NCBI RefSeq assembly: GCF_014252055.1
Contig: NZ_CP059208.1
Coordinates: forward strand, 1-64,000
Length of the DNA stretch: 64,000 nucleotides
Direction: 5' to 3'
Origin: Blattabacterium cuenoti
Lineage (GTDB): Bacteria; Bacteroidota; Bacteroidia; Flavobacteriales; Blattabacteriaceae
Part shown: positions 52,721-58,393 of the stretch, one piece after another
Layout: each line of letters starts with the position of its first letter
Numbering within the stretch: the stretch's first letter is position 1
Translations under genes and position numbers: made by a program
The notes under the pieces: model-generated
What the model was told of the DNA's origin: nothing
Database searches by the model: none
Seen by the model: only the letters and a program-made list of their open reading frames with translations

Positions 52721-53400
52721 TTATTTTTTTAGTATTAATCCATTTTTTATTTCCATTTTTTCATCTGCCATATTTGCTAACACAATATTGTGAGTAACAA
52801 TTAAAAAAGTTTTTTTTAATTCCTTATTAAGAAAAAAGAATAATTGATGTAAATTATCTGCATTTTTTTTATCTAAATTCCCAGAAGGTTCATCTGCAAA
52901 AATAATTTTTGGATCATTAATTAATGCCCTTGCTACAGATAATCTTTGTTTTTCTCCACCAGATAATTCATCAATTTTTGAGTCAATATGTTTTTGAATA
53001 TTTAGTTTTATTAATAAATTTTCTGCTATATTTTCTATATATGCTTTATTTTTTTTATTGTTTATCAATCCTGGTAGACTTATATTTTCCAATACGGTAA
53101 ACTCAGGTAAAAATTTCGGATCTTGAAAAATGAAACCTATCTCTTTATTTCTTACATAAGAAAGATCTTTATCAGAAATAGATAAAACTTCTTTTCCGTT
53201 TATTTTCAAGGTAGTTTCTATATTTTTTTTTTAGTAGGTTTGTCTAATGTTCCTAATATATGTAAAAGAGTACTTTTTCCAGATCCAGATTCTCCTAAAA
53301 TGCATACTATATGGCCTTTTTTTACTGAAATAGTAATCCCTTTCAATATATCTTTTTTCTCAAAAGATTTATAAATATTTTTAGCTTGAATCATTTTCAT
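52721..53400 (-). pseudogene. lolD: LolD-type lipoprotein-release ABC ATPase, frame broken at an A10 run
   Basis: LolD drives release of outer-membrane lipoproteins from the LolCE complex. The first frame (ATG 53400 to stop 53218-53220) holds the start and Walker A (GESGSGKST) and ends at GTLDKPTKKK. The second (from about 53221 to 52721) continues with LKINGKEVLSISDKDL, signature ELSGGEKQRLSVARAL, Walker B IIFADEPSGNLD and H-loop VTHN. The break is in ten A on the coding strand (53223-53232 on the plus strand). Adding one A or removing two restores one frame through TTLKINGKEV, matching flavobacterial LolD. Both halves are well conserved. It may be rescued by slippage, be a fresh pseudogene, or be a sequencing error. 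Confidence 0.88.
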
Positions 53401-53525: not shown

Positions 53526-54707
53526 ATGAATTTGCATGAATATCAAGGTAGAGAAATACTAAACTCTTTTTCAATAGAAACCCCAGAAGGGTTATTAGCT
53601 TCATCTCCAGAAGAAGCAGTAAAACATGCGAAAATTATCTTCGAAAAAACTAGAAAAAAATCATTAGTAATTAAAGCTCAAATACTTGCAGGTGGACGTG
53701 GAAAGTCTGGAGGAATTAAAATAGCAAAAAATTTAGATGAAGTTTACCAAAAATCAAAAGAATTATTAGGAAAATATCTTATAACTTCTCAAACTTCTGG
53801 TAAAGGGAAATTAGTTAAAAAAGTACTAATATCTGAAGATGTATATATTTTTGAAAAAAAATCTATAGTAGAATATTATTTTTCAATATTGTTAGACCGT
53901 AATTTAGAAAGAAATATTATTATTTACTCTAAAGAAGGTGGAATAAATATAGAAGAAAAATCTAATATAATATATACTGAGCAAATAGATCCAATATTAG
54001 GATTACAGTTATTTCAAACTAGAAAAATAGGATTTAATTTAGGATTATCTAAAGATTTGTTATCTAAATTTAATAAGTTTTTAAAAATTCTTTATAAAGC
54101 ATATCAATATTATGATTCTTTATTATTGGAAATAAATCCTTTAATAATAAATAAAGAAAATAAAATAATTCCAGTAGATATAAAAATGGTTTTAGATGAT
54201 AATGCTTTATTTCGTCATAAAAAATATACAAATTATAATGAAAACGAGGATATTAATGATCTCGAGAAAAAAGCAATAAAATATGATCTAAACTTTATAA
54301 AGTTAGATGGAAATGTGGGTTGTATGGTAAATGGAGCTGGATTAGCTATGGCAACTATGGATATGATTAAATTATGTGGTGGTAAACCGGCTAATTTTTT
54401 AGATATAGGAGGATCAGCAGATAGAGAAAGAGTAAAAAATGCCTTTTCTATAATTTTAAATGATAAATCAGTAAAAACTATATTAATAAATATATTCGGT
54501 GGAATAGTTCGTTGTGATACAGTAGCAAAAGGAGTAGTTGATTCTTATTCTAAAAGAAATATTAAGATACCAATTATTGTTCGTTTGCAAGGAACAAATG
54601 AAAAAAATGCCAAAGAAATACTTGATAACAGTAAATTACCTATTTATTATACTGATTCTTTAAAAGAAGCAGCTAACAAAATCAGAGAAATATTATTATC
54701 ATTATAA
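53526..54707 (+). CDS. sucC: Succinyl-CoA synthetase beta subunit (ADP-forming)
   Basis: Makes succinate with substrate-level ATP synthesis in the TCA cycle, together with SucD. The ATP-grasp domain has MNLHEYQGREIL, KAQILAGGRGKSGGIK and LEINPLIINKENKIIPVDIKM; the C-terminal CoA-ligase domain has NGAGLAMATMDMIKLCGGKPANFLDIGGSA and INIFGGIVRCDTVAKGV. 393 residues. sucD is not adjacent in the window. An AT-only hairpin precedes the start codon. Confidence 0.96.
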   Translation: MNLHEYQGREILNSFSIETPEGLLASSPEEAVKHAKIIFEKTRKKSLVIKAQILAGGRGKSGGIKIAKNLDEVYQKSKELLGKYLITSQTSGKGKLVKKVLISEDVYIFEKKSIVEYYFSILLDRNLERNIIIYSKEGGINIEEKSNIIYTEQIDPILGLQLFQTRKIGFNLGLSKDLLSKFNKFLKILYKAYQYYDSLLLEINPLIINKENKIIPVDIKMVLDDNALFRHKKYTNYNENEDINDLEKKAIKYDLNFIKLDGNVGCMVNGAGLAMATMDMIKLCGGKPANFLDIGGSADRERVKNAFSIILNDKSVKTILINIFGGIVRCDTVAKGVVDSYSKRNIKIPIIVRLQGTNEKNAKEILDNSKLPIYYTDSLKEAANKIREILLSL

Positions 54708-54717
54708 AAAATATTTC

Positions 54718-56199
54718 ATGAATATAATTCCTCCTGAAAATATTGTTTTATCAGATAAATATAGACCCATAAAATGGAGTGAAATAATAGGTCAAAAAAA
54801 AATTACTTTAACTCTTAAAAATGCAATAAAATATAACAGGTTATCTCAATTTATATTTTTTGTAGGTCCCGATGGAGTAGGAAAAAATACATGCGCTAGA
54901 ATTTTAGCTAACGAATTAAATTACAATTCAGAAGAAAATAAATCATCAAATATTTTTGAAATAGATGGATTTTTAAATATTTCATTAGATATTTTTCATA
55001 AAATAATAAATAAAATACATATTTATCAAAAAAAAAATGAATATAATATTATTATCATAAGAAATATAGATCTTTTTTCTCAAGATTTGTTCAATTTACT
55101 TTTGAACTTTATAGAAAAAAAACATCCACATGTATTGTTTATCTTTTGTGGAAGAAAAAAAAGTAATATTCCTATATCTATAAGATTACATTGTCAAATA
55201 TATGAATTTGAAAGTATTTCCATAAAAGAAATTTTTCTTCATTTAAAAATGATATCTGAAAAAGAAAGTCTAAAAATAGATAACGAATCTTTATTTATTT
55301 TATCTCAAAATGTAGAAGGTTCTATTAGCAAAGCTATTTATATTTTTGATAAATTAACAATAATTCATAAAAAAATATCTAAGGATATTATAACAAAAGA
55401 ATTAGGTATCATAGATATTACATATTATTTTGATATAGTTAATTATCTTTTAAACAGAAAAATACATAAAATATTTATATTATTAGATAAAATATTTCAA
55501 GAAAAAATTAATTGTTCTAATTTCATAATTGGATTAATAAAACATTTTAGAAATCTTTTTTTATCTAAAAATTATGAAACACTTCCTCTTATAAAACTCA
55601 AAAAAGAAGTAGTTCAATCTTATATAAAACAATCAAAATGTATATCTGATTCGTTAATAATTGGATCTTTAAACATATGTTTTCATCTAAAAGAAAAGTA
55701 TGAATTTTGTAAAAATTCTAAATTGATGATAGAGATATACTTAATAAAACTAGCTAATTTTTATTATCATATAATAAATACAAATACAAAAAGTTTGAAA
55801 AAGATAAAGGAAAATTCAGAGTTTTTATGTTTTGACAAAAAAAATGAAAAAATATCTTTTGTAAAAAAAAATTGGGTAAATTTTTTACATAATTTTTCAG
55901 AAAAAATAAATTCTATTTACCTAGATTTTTTAAAAAAAGAAATAGAATTTTATATTGAAAAAAATGAGATATTCTTCATAGTACCTTATGAATTACTAGA
56001 TAATACTAATTTTTCATTAGTACAATCATATTTTATAAAGTTTTTAAAAAAAGAATTAAATTATCCAAATTTAAAATTTAAAGTAATAAAAAAAGATTCA
56101 GAAAAAAACATAATAAAAAAATATGTTTTTCTATCTAAAAAAAATAAGTTTACAGAAAAATTAATAGAAGAATTAAATTTGAAAATATCTTCTTCTTAG
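54718..56199 (+). CDS. dnaX: DNA polymerase III gamma/tau subunit, strongly degenerate ATPase
   Basis: DnaX is the clamp-loader ATPase of the replisome. The start (LSDKYRPIKWSEIIGQKKITLTLKNAI) and the overall domain order are those of DnaX, and Walker A remains as GPDGVGKNT at 50-58. Other features are lost: the four-Cys zinc module after Walker A is absent, Walker B DEVHML is RNIDLF, the sensor/TTEKHK region is GRKKSNI, and SRC (arginine finger) is LHC. The C-terminal part (about 250-493) is variable. The frame is fully open over 493 residues, so it is probably expressed, perhaps as a structural subunit. It begins 10 bases after sucC. Confidence 0.87.
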   Translation: MNIIPPENIVLSDKYRPIKWSEIIGQKKITLTLKNAIKYNRLSQFIFFVGPDGVGKNTCARILANELNYNSEENKSSNIFEIDGFLNISLDIFHKIINKIHIYQKKNEYNIIIIRNIDLFSQDLFNLLLNFIEKKHPHVLFIFCGRKKSNIPISIRLHCQIYEFESISIKEIFLHLKMISEKESLKIDNESLFILSQNVEGSISKAIYIFDKLTIIHKKISKDIITKELGIIDITYYFDIVNYLLNRKIHKIFILLDKIFQEKINCSNFIIGLIKHFRNLFLSKNYETLPLIKLKKEVVQSYIKQSKCISDSLIIGSLNICFHLKEKYEFCKNSKLMIEIYLIKLANFYYHIINTNTKSLKKIKENSEFLCFDKKNEKISFVKKNWVNFLHNFSEKINSIYLDFLKKEIEFYIEKNEIFFIVPYELLDNTNFSLVQSYFIKFLKKELNYPNLKFKVIKKDSEKNIIKKYVFLSKKNKFTEKLIEELNLKISSS

Positions 56200-56284: not shown

Positions 56285-58393
56285 ATGATTTATCATTATT
56301 CGTCAAACAGTAGAAAAAAAATACTTTTATCTTCTGCTTATTCAGATGAAGACATTGAAAGTGATAGTTTCACTCATTCTTATGGATCTGGAAGTGGAAG
56401 TAATACAGGGTCAGGATATTATGGAGGAACTTCAATAAGAAGTAAAACACCTGTATTAGATAGTTTTGGTAGAGATTTAAATGCTATAGCTATAGAAGGA
56501 AAACTAGATCCTGTAATAGGAAGAGATAAAGAAGTAGAACGTGTTTCTCAAATATTGAGTAGAAGAAAAAAAAATAATCCTCTTCTCATAGGAGAACCTG
56601 GAGTTGGAAAATCTGCTATTGCTGAAGGATTAGCTTTACGTATTGTCCAAAAAAAAGTATCAAGAGTTTTATATAACAAAAGAGTAGTCATTTTGGATCT
56701 AGCAAATTTAGTAGCTGGAACTAAATATAGAGGTCAATTTGAAGAAAGAATGAAAGCTATTATAAATGAATCAGAAAAAAATGTAGGACTGATACTTTTT
56801 ATAGATGAAATTCATACAATGATTGGAGCTGGAGGAACTACAGGATCTTTAGATGCATCTAATATATTTAAACCAGCATTAGCAAGAGGAGATATACAAT
56901 GTATAGGAGCTACAACCTTAAATGAATATAGACAATACATAGAAAAAGATGGTGCATTAGAAAGAAGATTTCAAAAAATTATAGTACAACCTTCATCTGA
57001 AAATGAAACTATTGAAATATTAAAAAATATAAAATTTAAATATGAGAATTACCATAATGTTTTATATACAGAAAAAGCTATAAAAGCATGTGTAAATCTA
57101 ACTTCACAATATATTGTAGATCGTTTTTTTCCAGATAAGGCTATTGATGCATTAGATGAAGCTGGATCTAGGGTTCATATTAAAAATATAAAAGTTCCAC
57201 AAGAAATAGTTCTTCTTGAAAAAGAATTAGAAAATATCCGAGAAGAAAAATTAAAAGTAGTAAAAAATCAAAAATACGAAGAAGCAGCTCGTTTACGAGA
57301 TCAAGAAAAGCGTATAGAAAAAAAATTATTGAAAGCACAAAAAGAATGGGAAAAATTATCAAAAGAAAATAAAGAAATAGTTTCTGAAGAAAATGTAGAA
57401 GAAGTTGTGTCTATGATGAGTGGAATTCCAGTAAATCGAATAGCTCAAGCTGAAATGAAAAGATTGAATAAAATGGCCGATTTGTTAAAAGAAAAAATAA
57501 TAGGTCAAGATGAAGCTATAGATAAAATAGTAAAATCTGTTAAAAGAAACAGAACAGGTTTAAAAGATCCTCATAGTCCTATAGGATCTTTCATTTTTTT
57601 AGGACAGACAGGAGTTGGAAAAACATATCTAGCAAAAACTTTTACTAAAGAATTATTCGATTCAGAAGAATTTTTAATACGTATAGATATGAGTGAATAT
57701 ATGGAAAAATTTTCCGTATCTAGATTAATAGGAGCTCCTCCAGGTTATGTTGGATATGAAGAAGGTGGGCAATTAACAGAAATTATACGTCGTAAACCTT
57801 ATGCTGTTATATTATTAGATGAAATAGAAAAAGCGCACTCTGATGTTTTTAATATATTATTACAAATATTGGATTATGGAAGTGTAACTGATAGTATAGG
57901 AAGAAAAATAAATTTTAAAAATACTATTATTATACTTACTTCAAATACAGGAACACAACAATTAAAAGAATTTGGAAGAGGTATAGGATTTAATACAAAA
58001 GCTAAAAAATCTTGCAATTATATTAGTGATGTATTAGAACAATCATTAAAAAAAACGTTTTCTCCAGAATTTTTAAATAGAATAGATGATATTATTATTT
58101 TTAATTCCCTAAAACCAAAAGATATATCTAAAATAACTAATCTAGAATTAGAAAAAATAACAATTCAAATTAGAAATTTAGGTTATAAATTGATTTTATT
58201 ACCTGAAGTGAATAATTTCATACAAGAAAAAGGATTTGATAAATCTTATGGAGCTAGACCTTTAAAAAGAGTAATAGAAAAATTTATTAAAAATCCAATA
58301 TCAGAATGCATAATAAACGAAAAGATAAAAAAAGGAGATACTATTACCTTAGAAATAGATAAAAAAGAAAATAATGTTAAAGTTAGAATATAA
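56285..58393 (+). CDS. clpC: Clp protease ATPase ClpC lacking the N-terminal domain
   Basis: An AAA+ unfoldase that feeds proteins to ClpP. Both ATPase modules are present: Walker A1 GEPGVGKSA at about 103, Walker A2 GQTGVGKT at about 440, LFIDEIHTMIGAGG, a ClpC middle domain (KNQKYEEAARLRDQEKRIEKKL) and GAPPGYVGYEEGGQLTE. The roughly 140-residue Clp-N double repeat of family members is missing. The protein starts with a short Ser/Gly-rich linker (SYGSGSGSNTGSGYYGG) leading directly to KTPVLDSFGRDLN. Only 85 bases separate it from dnaX, with no remnant of the N-domain. 702 residues against about 850 normally. It overlaps nth by 20 bases. Confidence 0.93.
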   Translation: MIYHYSSNSRKKILLSSAYSDEDIESDSFTHSYGSGSGSNTGSGYYGGTSIRSKTPVLDSFGRDLNAIAIEGKLDPVIGRDKEVERVSQILSRRKKNNPLLIGEPGVGKSAIAEGLALRIVQKKVSRVLYNKRVVILDLANLVAGTKYRGQFEERMKAIINESEKNVGLILFIDEIHTMIGAGGTTGSLDASNIFKPALARGDIQCIGATTLNEYRQYIEKDGALERRFQKIIVQPSSENETIEILKNIKFKYENYHNVLYTEKAIKACVNLTSQYIVDRFFPDKAIDALDEAGSRVHIKNIKVPQEIVLLEKELENIREEKLKVVKNQKYEEAARLRDQEKRIEKKLLKAQKEWEKLSKENKEIVSEENVEEVVSMMSGIPVNRIAQAEMKRLNKMADLLKEKIIGQDEAIDKIVKSVKRNRTGLKDPHSPIGSFIFLGQTGVGKTYLAKTFTKELFDSEEFLIRIDMSEYMEKFSVSRLIGAPPGYVGYEEGGQLTEIIRRKPYAVILLDEIEKAHSDVFNILLQILDYGSVTDSIGRKINFKNTIIILTSNTGTQQLKEFGRGIGFNTKAKKSCNYISDVLEQSLKKTFSPEFLNRIDDIIIFNSLKPKDISKITNLELEKITIQIRNLGYKLILLPEVNNFIQEKGFDKSYGARPLKRVIEKFIKNPISECIINEKIKKGDTITLEIDKKENNVKVRI

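Follow-up and report, generated by a model that had tools for sequence, protein, structure and literature searches.

The DnaX protein described here is the single gamma/tau orthologue in a bacterial genus whose clamp-loading axis is dismantled. DnaX normally hydrolyses ATP to place the sliding clamp on DNA, and textbooks treat both the clamp and its loader as universal in cellular replication. The axis is affected as a whole, which the original prediction on this DNA did not see. Beside DnaX this concerns the delta and delta' subunits, the clamp-binding motif of the polymerase DnaE, and the clamp itself.

On balance, DnaX in this genus would be a non-hydrolysing, possibly nucleotide-locked, tau-like scaffold. 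We infer that it is not a clamp loader because delta and delta' were not found, the catalytic residues of DnaX are gone, the DnaE motif is lost, and in one clade the clamp gene is deleted. Among the options originally offered, a DnaX that is now a structural arm fits best: its frame and tau-like C-terminal domain are retained even where there is no clamp gene.

Sequences and methods

The window is the whole stretch of DNA analysed, bases 1 to 64,000 of a genome assembled as one contig (622,023 bp, 98.57% complete). The genus sample consists of 49 genomes, probably Blattabacterium. In 46 of these, DnaX carries the AAA+ motif region. The other three are left out of motif tallies: there is no DnaX frame in G024 or G029, and in G038 the region is missing. 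The motif reference is an alignment of G049, G050, G053, G065 and G067, five members of the family in which the motifs are intact.

HolA and HolB were searched for with models TIGR01128 and TIGR00678 in 68 family genomes. A FastTree tree was built from DnaE, SucC and ClpB of 53 genomes, several of which have ClpB only in part or not at all. For 15 genome pairs, dN/dS was estimated by the Nei-Gojobori method. Five pairs were also simulated under neutrality with four mutation settings, at 200 runs per setting.

The dnaX locus

The following features, all on the forward strand, define the locus.

53526..54707 (+): sucC, the upstream syntenic anchor for reading presence or absence of dnaX
54718..56199 (+): dnaX orthologue (gamma/tau), 493 aa, ATPase-dead, flanked by sucC and clpB
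55378..55752 (+): domain III (collar) of DnaX, residues 221-345; with the C-terminal domain, the portion retained in G038
55858..56196 (+): tau-like C-terminal domain of DnaX, residues 381-493, ending in FLSKKN...; G053 has a homologous domain
56285..58393 (+): clpB-type AAA+ gene, the downstream syntenic anchor

The open frame of 493 residues is confirmed. Its top NCBIfam models are gamma/tau models (PRK14971 at 8.5e-69, TIGR02397 at 1.4e-57), its best PDB match is E. coli tau/gamma, and Pfam AAA matches at 8e-8. The protein scores below curated cut-offs because it has diverged; for TIGR02397 it reaches 195.6 bits where the cut-off is 250. A plasmid tblastn search with the protein confirmed DnaX homology and gave nothing further, and a single-sequence structure prediction has a mean pLDDT of 39.

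It is called an orthologue on three grounds, which are gamma/tau homology over AAA+ region and domain III, single copy, and a conserved neighbourhood. Synteny with sucC and the domain order are common to G053, G067, G049 and G050. G053 is a relative with a 1.3-Mb genome, and its DnaX has a C-terminal domain that aligns to the one in the window. A tau scaffold is expected to have such a domain beyond domain III, and the window DnaX has it. The related symbionts G049, G050 and G067 have taken the opposite path: in them the C-terminal domain was lost and the ATPase core stayed, whereas the genus kept the domain and lost the ATPase. None of 80 other records found with the window SucC (mostly Flavobacteriia/Bacteroidota) has dnaX near sucC.

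A profile search of the whole 622-kb contig found no second dnaX. The next TIGR02397 match is a 347-aa frame (E 1.7e-7, 29 bits), taken to be RuvB from its position and length. All other matches stay below 30 bits. One of them, at 57494, is the clpB-type gene adjoining dnaX, and on the same grounds the remainder are taken to be RuvB, ClpB and other AAA+ proteins.

Upstream of sucC, at 52721-53209 on the reverse strand, lies an ABC-transporter ATPase frame that looks LolD-like by eye and has no in-frame Walker A, with a remnant up to about 53400. This is probably a broken gene, the upstream stretch lying in other frames with stops.

The active site

The roles of the AAA+ clamp-loader motifs are general knowledge; for the arginine finger and for the glutamate of Walker B, they are covered in passages of PMC3331839. 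The corresponding sites in the window are listed below. Those of Walker B, both sensors and the arginine finger come from the alignment and the genus tally.

54865..54888 (+): P-loop G50-PDGVG-K56-N57; GxxGxGK kept, Thr replaced by Asn57
54919..54960 (+): location of the zinc module in other DnaX; here short and without Cys
55060..55065 (+): Walker B, with Arg115-Asn116 instead of Asp-Glu
55150..55155 (+): sensor 1, with Gly145-Arg146 instead of Thr-Thr
55186..55194 (+): arginine finger, with Leu157-His158-Cys159 instead of SRC
55327..55329 (+): sensor 2, with Ser204 instead of Arg

Compared to the reference, the window reads GPDGVGKN for GxxGxGKT, IIIRN for IIDE, LHC for SRC and GSIS for G[SA][LI]R. 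It thus has neither a Walker A of the form GxxGxGK[TS], nor Walker B, nor the arginines of SRC and sensor 2 that a functional DnaX ATPase would have. The predicted replacements of Walker B (IIDEVHML to IIIRNIDLF) and of SRC are borne out, and the losses at sensors 1 and 2 come in addition. The statement that only Walker A remains is half right: GxxGxGK is kept, but with Asn57 for Thr the motif is not intact.

It had been suggested to compare motif loss in related genomes, and there the same picture is found. The pair of Walker B acids, the Walker A Thr and the sensor-2 Arg are absent from all 46 DnaX. The Thr position holds Asn in 41, Ser in 4 and His in 1; the Walker B Asp survives in 1 and the Glu in 7. 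The SRC Arg is retained in 27/46. Only the glycines and lysine of GxxGxGK are present in 46/46.

The P-loop segment of 11 residues contains 6 of the 23 invariant columns (P ~2e-6). Its invariance suggests nucleotide binding without hydrolysis. The P-loop is also the most conserved part of any DnaX, and the invariance may be partly inherited.

The zinc module is a different matter. It is indeed absent, as predicted, but it did not erode here. The five outgroup family members aligned have no Cys module either, so a recent erosion is rejected and the absence is older than the genus. Among the best-scoring 30 of 95 matched order-level genomes, 13 DnaX have at most one Cys, and GKT and DE are present in all 30. 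The module is therefore not diagnostic of a functional ATPase.

Missing partners

HolA frames distinct from DnaX are found in G049, G050, G053, G054, G055 and G067. The same six have clear HolB frames, which form the rows of a six-protein alignment, and G065 has a further probable HolB match, a 331-aa frame.

In the genus, a query made from an alignment of three HolA proteins finds HolA in 0/49 genomes. The query does recover HolA in G049, G050 and G054, all outside the alignment, which serve as positive controls. A repeat search with the same query again found none in G000 and G010. It has no match in G065, a draft that is 77% complete. The TIGR01128 matches in the genus fall on DnaX coordinates, save weak ones (E at least 1e-4) in frames of some 910-930 aa.

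The place where holA used to be can be located. In G053 it sits between trxB and a small gene, which we take to be an HsdR-N-type frame. In G000, G026 and G010, trxB adjoins that small gene at a distance of 42-93 bp with nothing between. In all three genomes examined, holA is excised at its ancestral site.

HolB was not found in the 49 genomes. The TIGR00678 matches there are DnaX, other AAA+ or unidentified frames, and the six-HolB alignment matches nothing there but DnaX and a pair of AAA+ frames some 700 aa long (in G008 and G029). By place and frame length, matches to the HolB model other than DnaX are RuvB- or ClpB-like.

The proposed check for holA and holB thus finds neither, in the window genome or in the remaining genus. 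Clamp loading by HolA and HolB, which had been put forward as one way out, is not supported; not being found in 49 genomes, these two cannot do the loading.

Polymerase and clamp

DnaE is present in 49/49 genus genomes with scores of about 990-1090 bits, and is about 1410-1480 aa long except in G010. In that clamp-less genome the frame is split near the C-terminus into 1285 and 143 aa.

The internal clamp-binding motif of DnaE is at residue 1216 in G053. Seven relatives with clamp genes have it (G049, G050, G053, G054, G055, G065 and G067), in the forms QASLF, QCSLF, QNSLF, KQSLF (twice), KKTLF and KNSLF. It is absent in 49/49 genus members, where a variable, often Lys-rich linker is found instead; in G025, KTSLL occurs close to the site. 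The motif is also missing in the clamp-less G051, G052, G057 and G058. G066 is clamp-less yet retains KAPLF, so motif loss lags there.

Two other ideas were tried and rejected. The motif has not moved elsewhere in DnaE: QxxLF occurs in 4/49 genomes at four different, non-homologous places, and these are taken as chance, as is SLDLF at residue 1176 in the window genome and G008. Neither is there a clean co-loss of the tau and DnaE C-termini, given that G067, G054 and G055 keep the DnaE end and have no C-terminal domain of DnaX.

The clamp, DnaN (TIGR00663), is found in 41/49 genus genomes at 36-167 bits, with 89 bits in the window genome. In G049, G050, G053, G054, G055 and G067 it scores 210-265 bits, and in G065 155. 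The dnaN frame is broken in G016, G030 and G032.

In eight of the 49 genomes (G009, G010, G011, G015, G022, G029, G038 and G039) there is no dnaN between pdxH and pheT, which are only some 175-280 bp apart. On the tree these eight group together (support 1.0), and the pair of the window genome and G040 is their sister lineage (0.83). The clamp was therefore probably lost once in the genus. That the clean deletion is common to all eight argues against assembly gaps.

Fate of DnaX across the genus

DnaX persists in 46/49 genus genomes, in 42/49 as a full single frame. Five of the genomes without dnaN have open DnaX frames of 462-499 aa (G010, G011, G015, G022 and G039). In the other three, G009 has a frame break, and in G029 dnaX is destroyed, leaving only about 850 bp of stop-rich DNA. 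In G038 the AAA+ part is lost to stop-rich DNA, and an open frame of 255 codons is retained. This frame is 36% identical to window residues 221-493; its start codon is uncertain, with GTG possible.

Outside this clade, the 629-kb genome G024 has dnaX cleanly deleted, leaving sucC and clpB 208 bp apart (L192:11209-11417). Given the deletion in G024 and the destruction in G029, dnaX is dispensable in some lineages, at least two. G024 does keep a dnaN under purifying selection (L225), a clamp with no loader gene at all.

The gene is frame-broken in four genomes, G004, G021, G048 and G009 (L183, L034, L030 and L186), at a homopolymer. The break comes right after domain III, at an A11 run in three genomes and near a T10 run in G009, and the C-terminal domain follows in the next reading frame. 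Slippage during transcription might here yield both a gamma-like and a tau-like product. In several order-level relatives (L337, L339, L347, L352, L353, L358, L360 and L361), the DnaX frame is 361-407 aa long and does not include the tau C-terminal domain, which is found further downstream. It looks as if recoding is common in the order.

A mirror image of the genus is seen in G054 and G055 (274-285 kb). These keep HolA, HolB, DnaN and the DnaE motif (KKTLF, KNSLF) and have no DnaX (loci L130, L124, L155, L156, L206, L207, L306 and L307).

Selection

Constraint on dnaX is weak but measurable. Among genus pairs, dN/dS is 0.17-0.72 for the halves of dnaX, 0.14-0.87 for dnaN and 0.13-0.33 for dnaE. 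For the outgroup pair G049-G050, the values are 0.25 and 0.96 for dnaX, 0.55 for dnaN and 0.45 for dnaE. The dN/dS of dnaX is about twice that of dnaE, hence the weak constraint.

In the window pair G000-G040 dnaX has a dN/dS of 0.48, and in the clamp-less pair G010-G039 it is 0.47. For each of these pairs, 0/200 neutral simulations came out as low in each of the four settings. Under neutrality 22-40 stops would be expected in dnaX of these pairs, and none are seen. Judging from the window pair, the window dnaX is under purifying selection, which a pseudogene would not be.

All five simulated pairs have dnaX below neutral. One of them, G006-G014, is marginal, with a dN/dS of 0.63 that 3 and 15 of 200 simulations matched under two of the four settings. 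Its dnaN, at 0.87, is neutral-like.

Explanations

In the structural role that we favour, DnaX, probably as a self-oligomer, may hold nucleotide in its preserved P-loop and leave it uncleaved. Collar and tau-like C-terminal domain would anchor DnaE at the fork, perhaps together with the DnaB helicase. The polymerase would then copy some 600 kb with hardly any processivity from a clamp, or none, which may be tolerable in a slow-growing symbiont.

This role is supported by the invariant P-loop segment and by the opposite path taken in G049, G050 and G067. Purifying selection in the pairs G010-G039 and G000-G040 also counts for it. Counting against it are the weak constraint, the near-neutral deeper clamp-less pairs and the disappearance of dnaX from G024 and G029. 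Conservation of the C-terminal domain (0.68) also does not exceed that of the AAA+ part (0.69), and loss of the domain does not go cleanly together with that of the DnaE C-terminus.

A more far-reaching version is tentative, and we are inclined to doubt it. The entire genus could have a clamp-independent Pol III replicase, in which DnaX is a nucleotide-locked scaffold selected after the loss of the clamp. The DnaE motif would have become a basic linker, perhaps holding DNA.

DnaX could also have become jobless after the loss of holA and holB, and be slowly eroding toward deletion. Its family scores do fall from about 247 to below 70 bits across the genus. The gene is already gone from G024; in G029 it is destroyed, in G038 half of it is, and in four genomes its frame is broken. 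The deeper clamp-less pairs have a dnaX dN/dS of 0.57-0.86, which is near neutral, at saturated distances. Such a relic would, however, have gathered tens of stops under neutrality, and 42/49 genomes have a full single frame; neither should all five simulated pairs lie below neutral, with only G006-G014 marginal. We regard slow erosion as rather unlikely.

Less probable still is that DnaX helps DnaN onto DNA independently of ATP, for example by stabilising an open clamp while nucleotide-bound. The invariant P-loop would fit this, as would the purifying selection on dnaN seen in most pairs and the fact that the genomes with the most degraded DnaX also have the most degraded DnaN. But five genomes that have no dnaN retain DnaX, and G024, without dnaX, still has a dnaN that is constrained at 0.20-0.29 (for G024-G036, 0/200 simulations are as low in each setting). 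In addition, delta, which opens the clamp, is missing, and the DnaE clamp motif is lost.

A loader that still works would need catalytic residues from elsewhere, divergent holA and holB genes that were missed, or factors supplied by the host. GxxGxGK is intact, 27/46 DnaX retain the SRC Arg, and HolA is a fast-evolving protein. Yet each active site has three losses (the Walker B acid pair, the Walker A Thr and the sensor-2 Arg), and a HolA model that does find relatives has 0/49 here, with the holA site empty. With the DnaE motif also gone, and the clamp gone in eight genomes, a working loader is very improbable.

Finally, the window genome is a single assembly. Assembly errors and a further intact dnaX, raised at the outset as ways to overturn the observation, and likewise an annotation error, are already refuted by comparative data, since the same losses occur in 46 genomes of the genus and the 622-kb contig holds one DnaX; their probability is next to nil.

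Relation to known systems

With the bacterial DnaX of the Pol III holoenzyme, the genus DnaX shares the P-loop glycines and lysine, domain III, and a C-terminal domain like that of G053. It differs in having no Walker A Thr, Walker B acids or sensor-2 Arg, and in that HolA and HolB were not found beside it.

Catalytically inactive AAA+ subunits of clamp-loader type are known, namely HolB (delta') and the T4 E subunit, the latter described as inactive in part of PMC3331839. The HolB of the relatives has no P-loop lysine. These subunits sit in a ring with active ATPase subunits, whereas the search of the genus turned up no active one, and by sequence the protein is a DnaX and not a HolB.

Clamp loss is already known in tiny symbiont genomes. 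According to sections of PMC2175510, Carsonella lacks dnaN, holA, holB and dnaX; according to sections of PMC3971599, Uzinura lacks dnaN and dnaX. These genomes of 160-263 kb have lost everything, whereas those of the genus, at about 600 kb, keep an inactivated DnaX and mostly a degenerating clamp. Table 3 of PMC3971599, the part relevant here, scores dnaX and dnaN as present in Blattabacterium BPLAN. In PMC6039017, a dnaN pseudogene is listed for the Blattabacterium of Periplaneta japonica. This is clamp decay in what is probably the same genus; the portions of that paper used here list this one pseudogene and do not discuss clade-wide loss or decay of the loader.

For DnaE, portions of PMC3919608 give the clamp motif consensus as QL[S/D]LF, and mention five Bacteroidetes DnaE1 without any such motif, whose processivity is called an open question. 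These five possibly overlap with the genus studied here, the motif being missing in both. In those portions they come without organism names, and the loss is not linked to DnaX, HolA, HolB or DnaN.

In the literature searched, no report was seen of an ATPase-dead DnaX or of a genus-wide loss of the loader axis. The stepwise, genus-wide intermediate appears to be undescribed there.

The losses follow an order. Delta, delta', the ATPase residues of DnaX and the DnaE motif were lost ahead of the diversification of the genus; the clamp followed in one clade, and after it DnaX, piecemeal. The 49 genomes stand at different stages of this dismantling, and offer a natural deletion that separates the motor of DnaX from its proposed scaffold function. 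They also bear on the question left open in the portions of PMC3919608 mentioned above, that of the processivity of a DnaE1 without a clamp motif.
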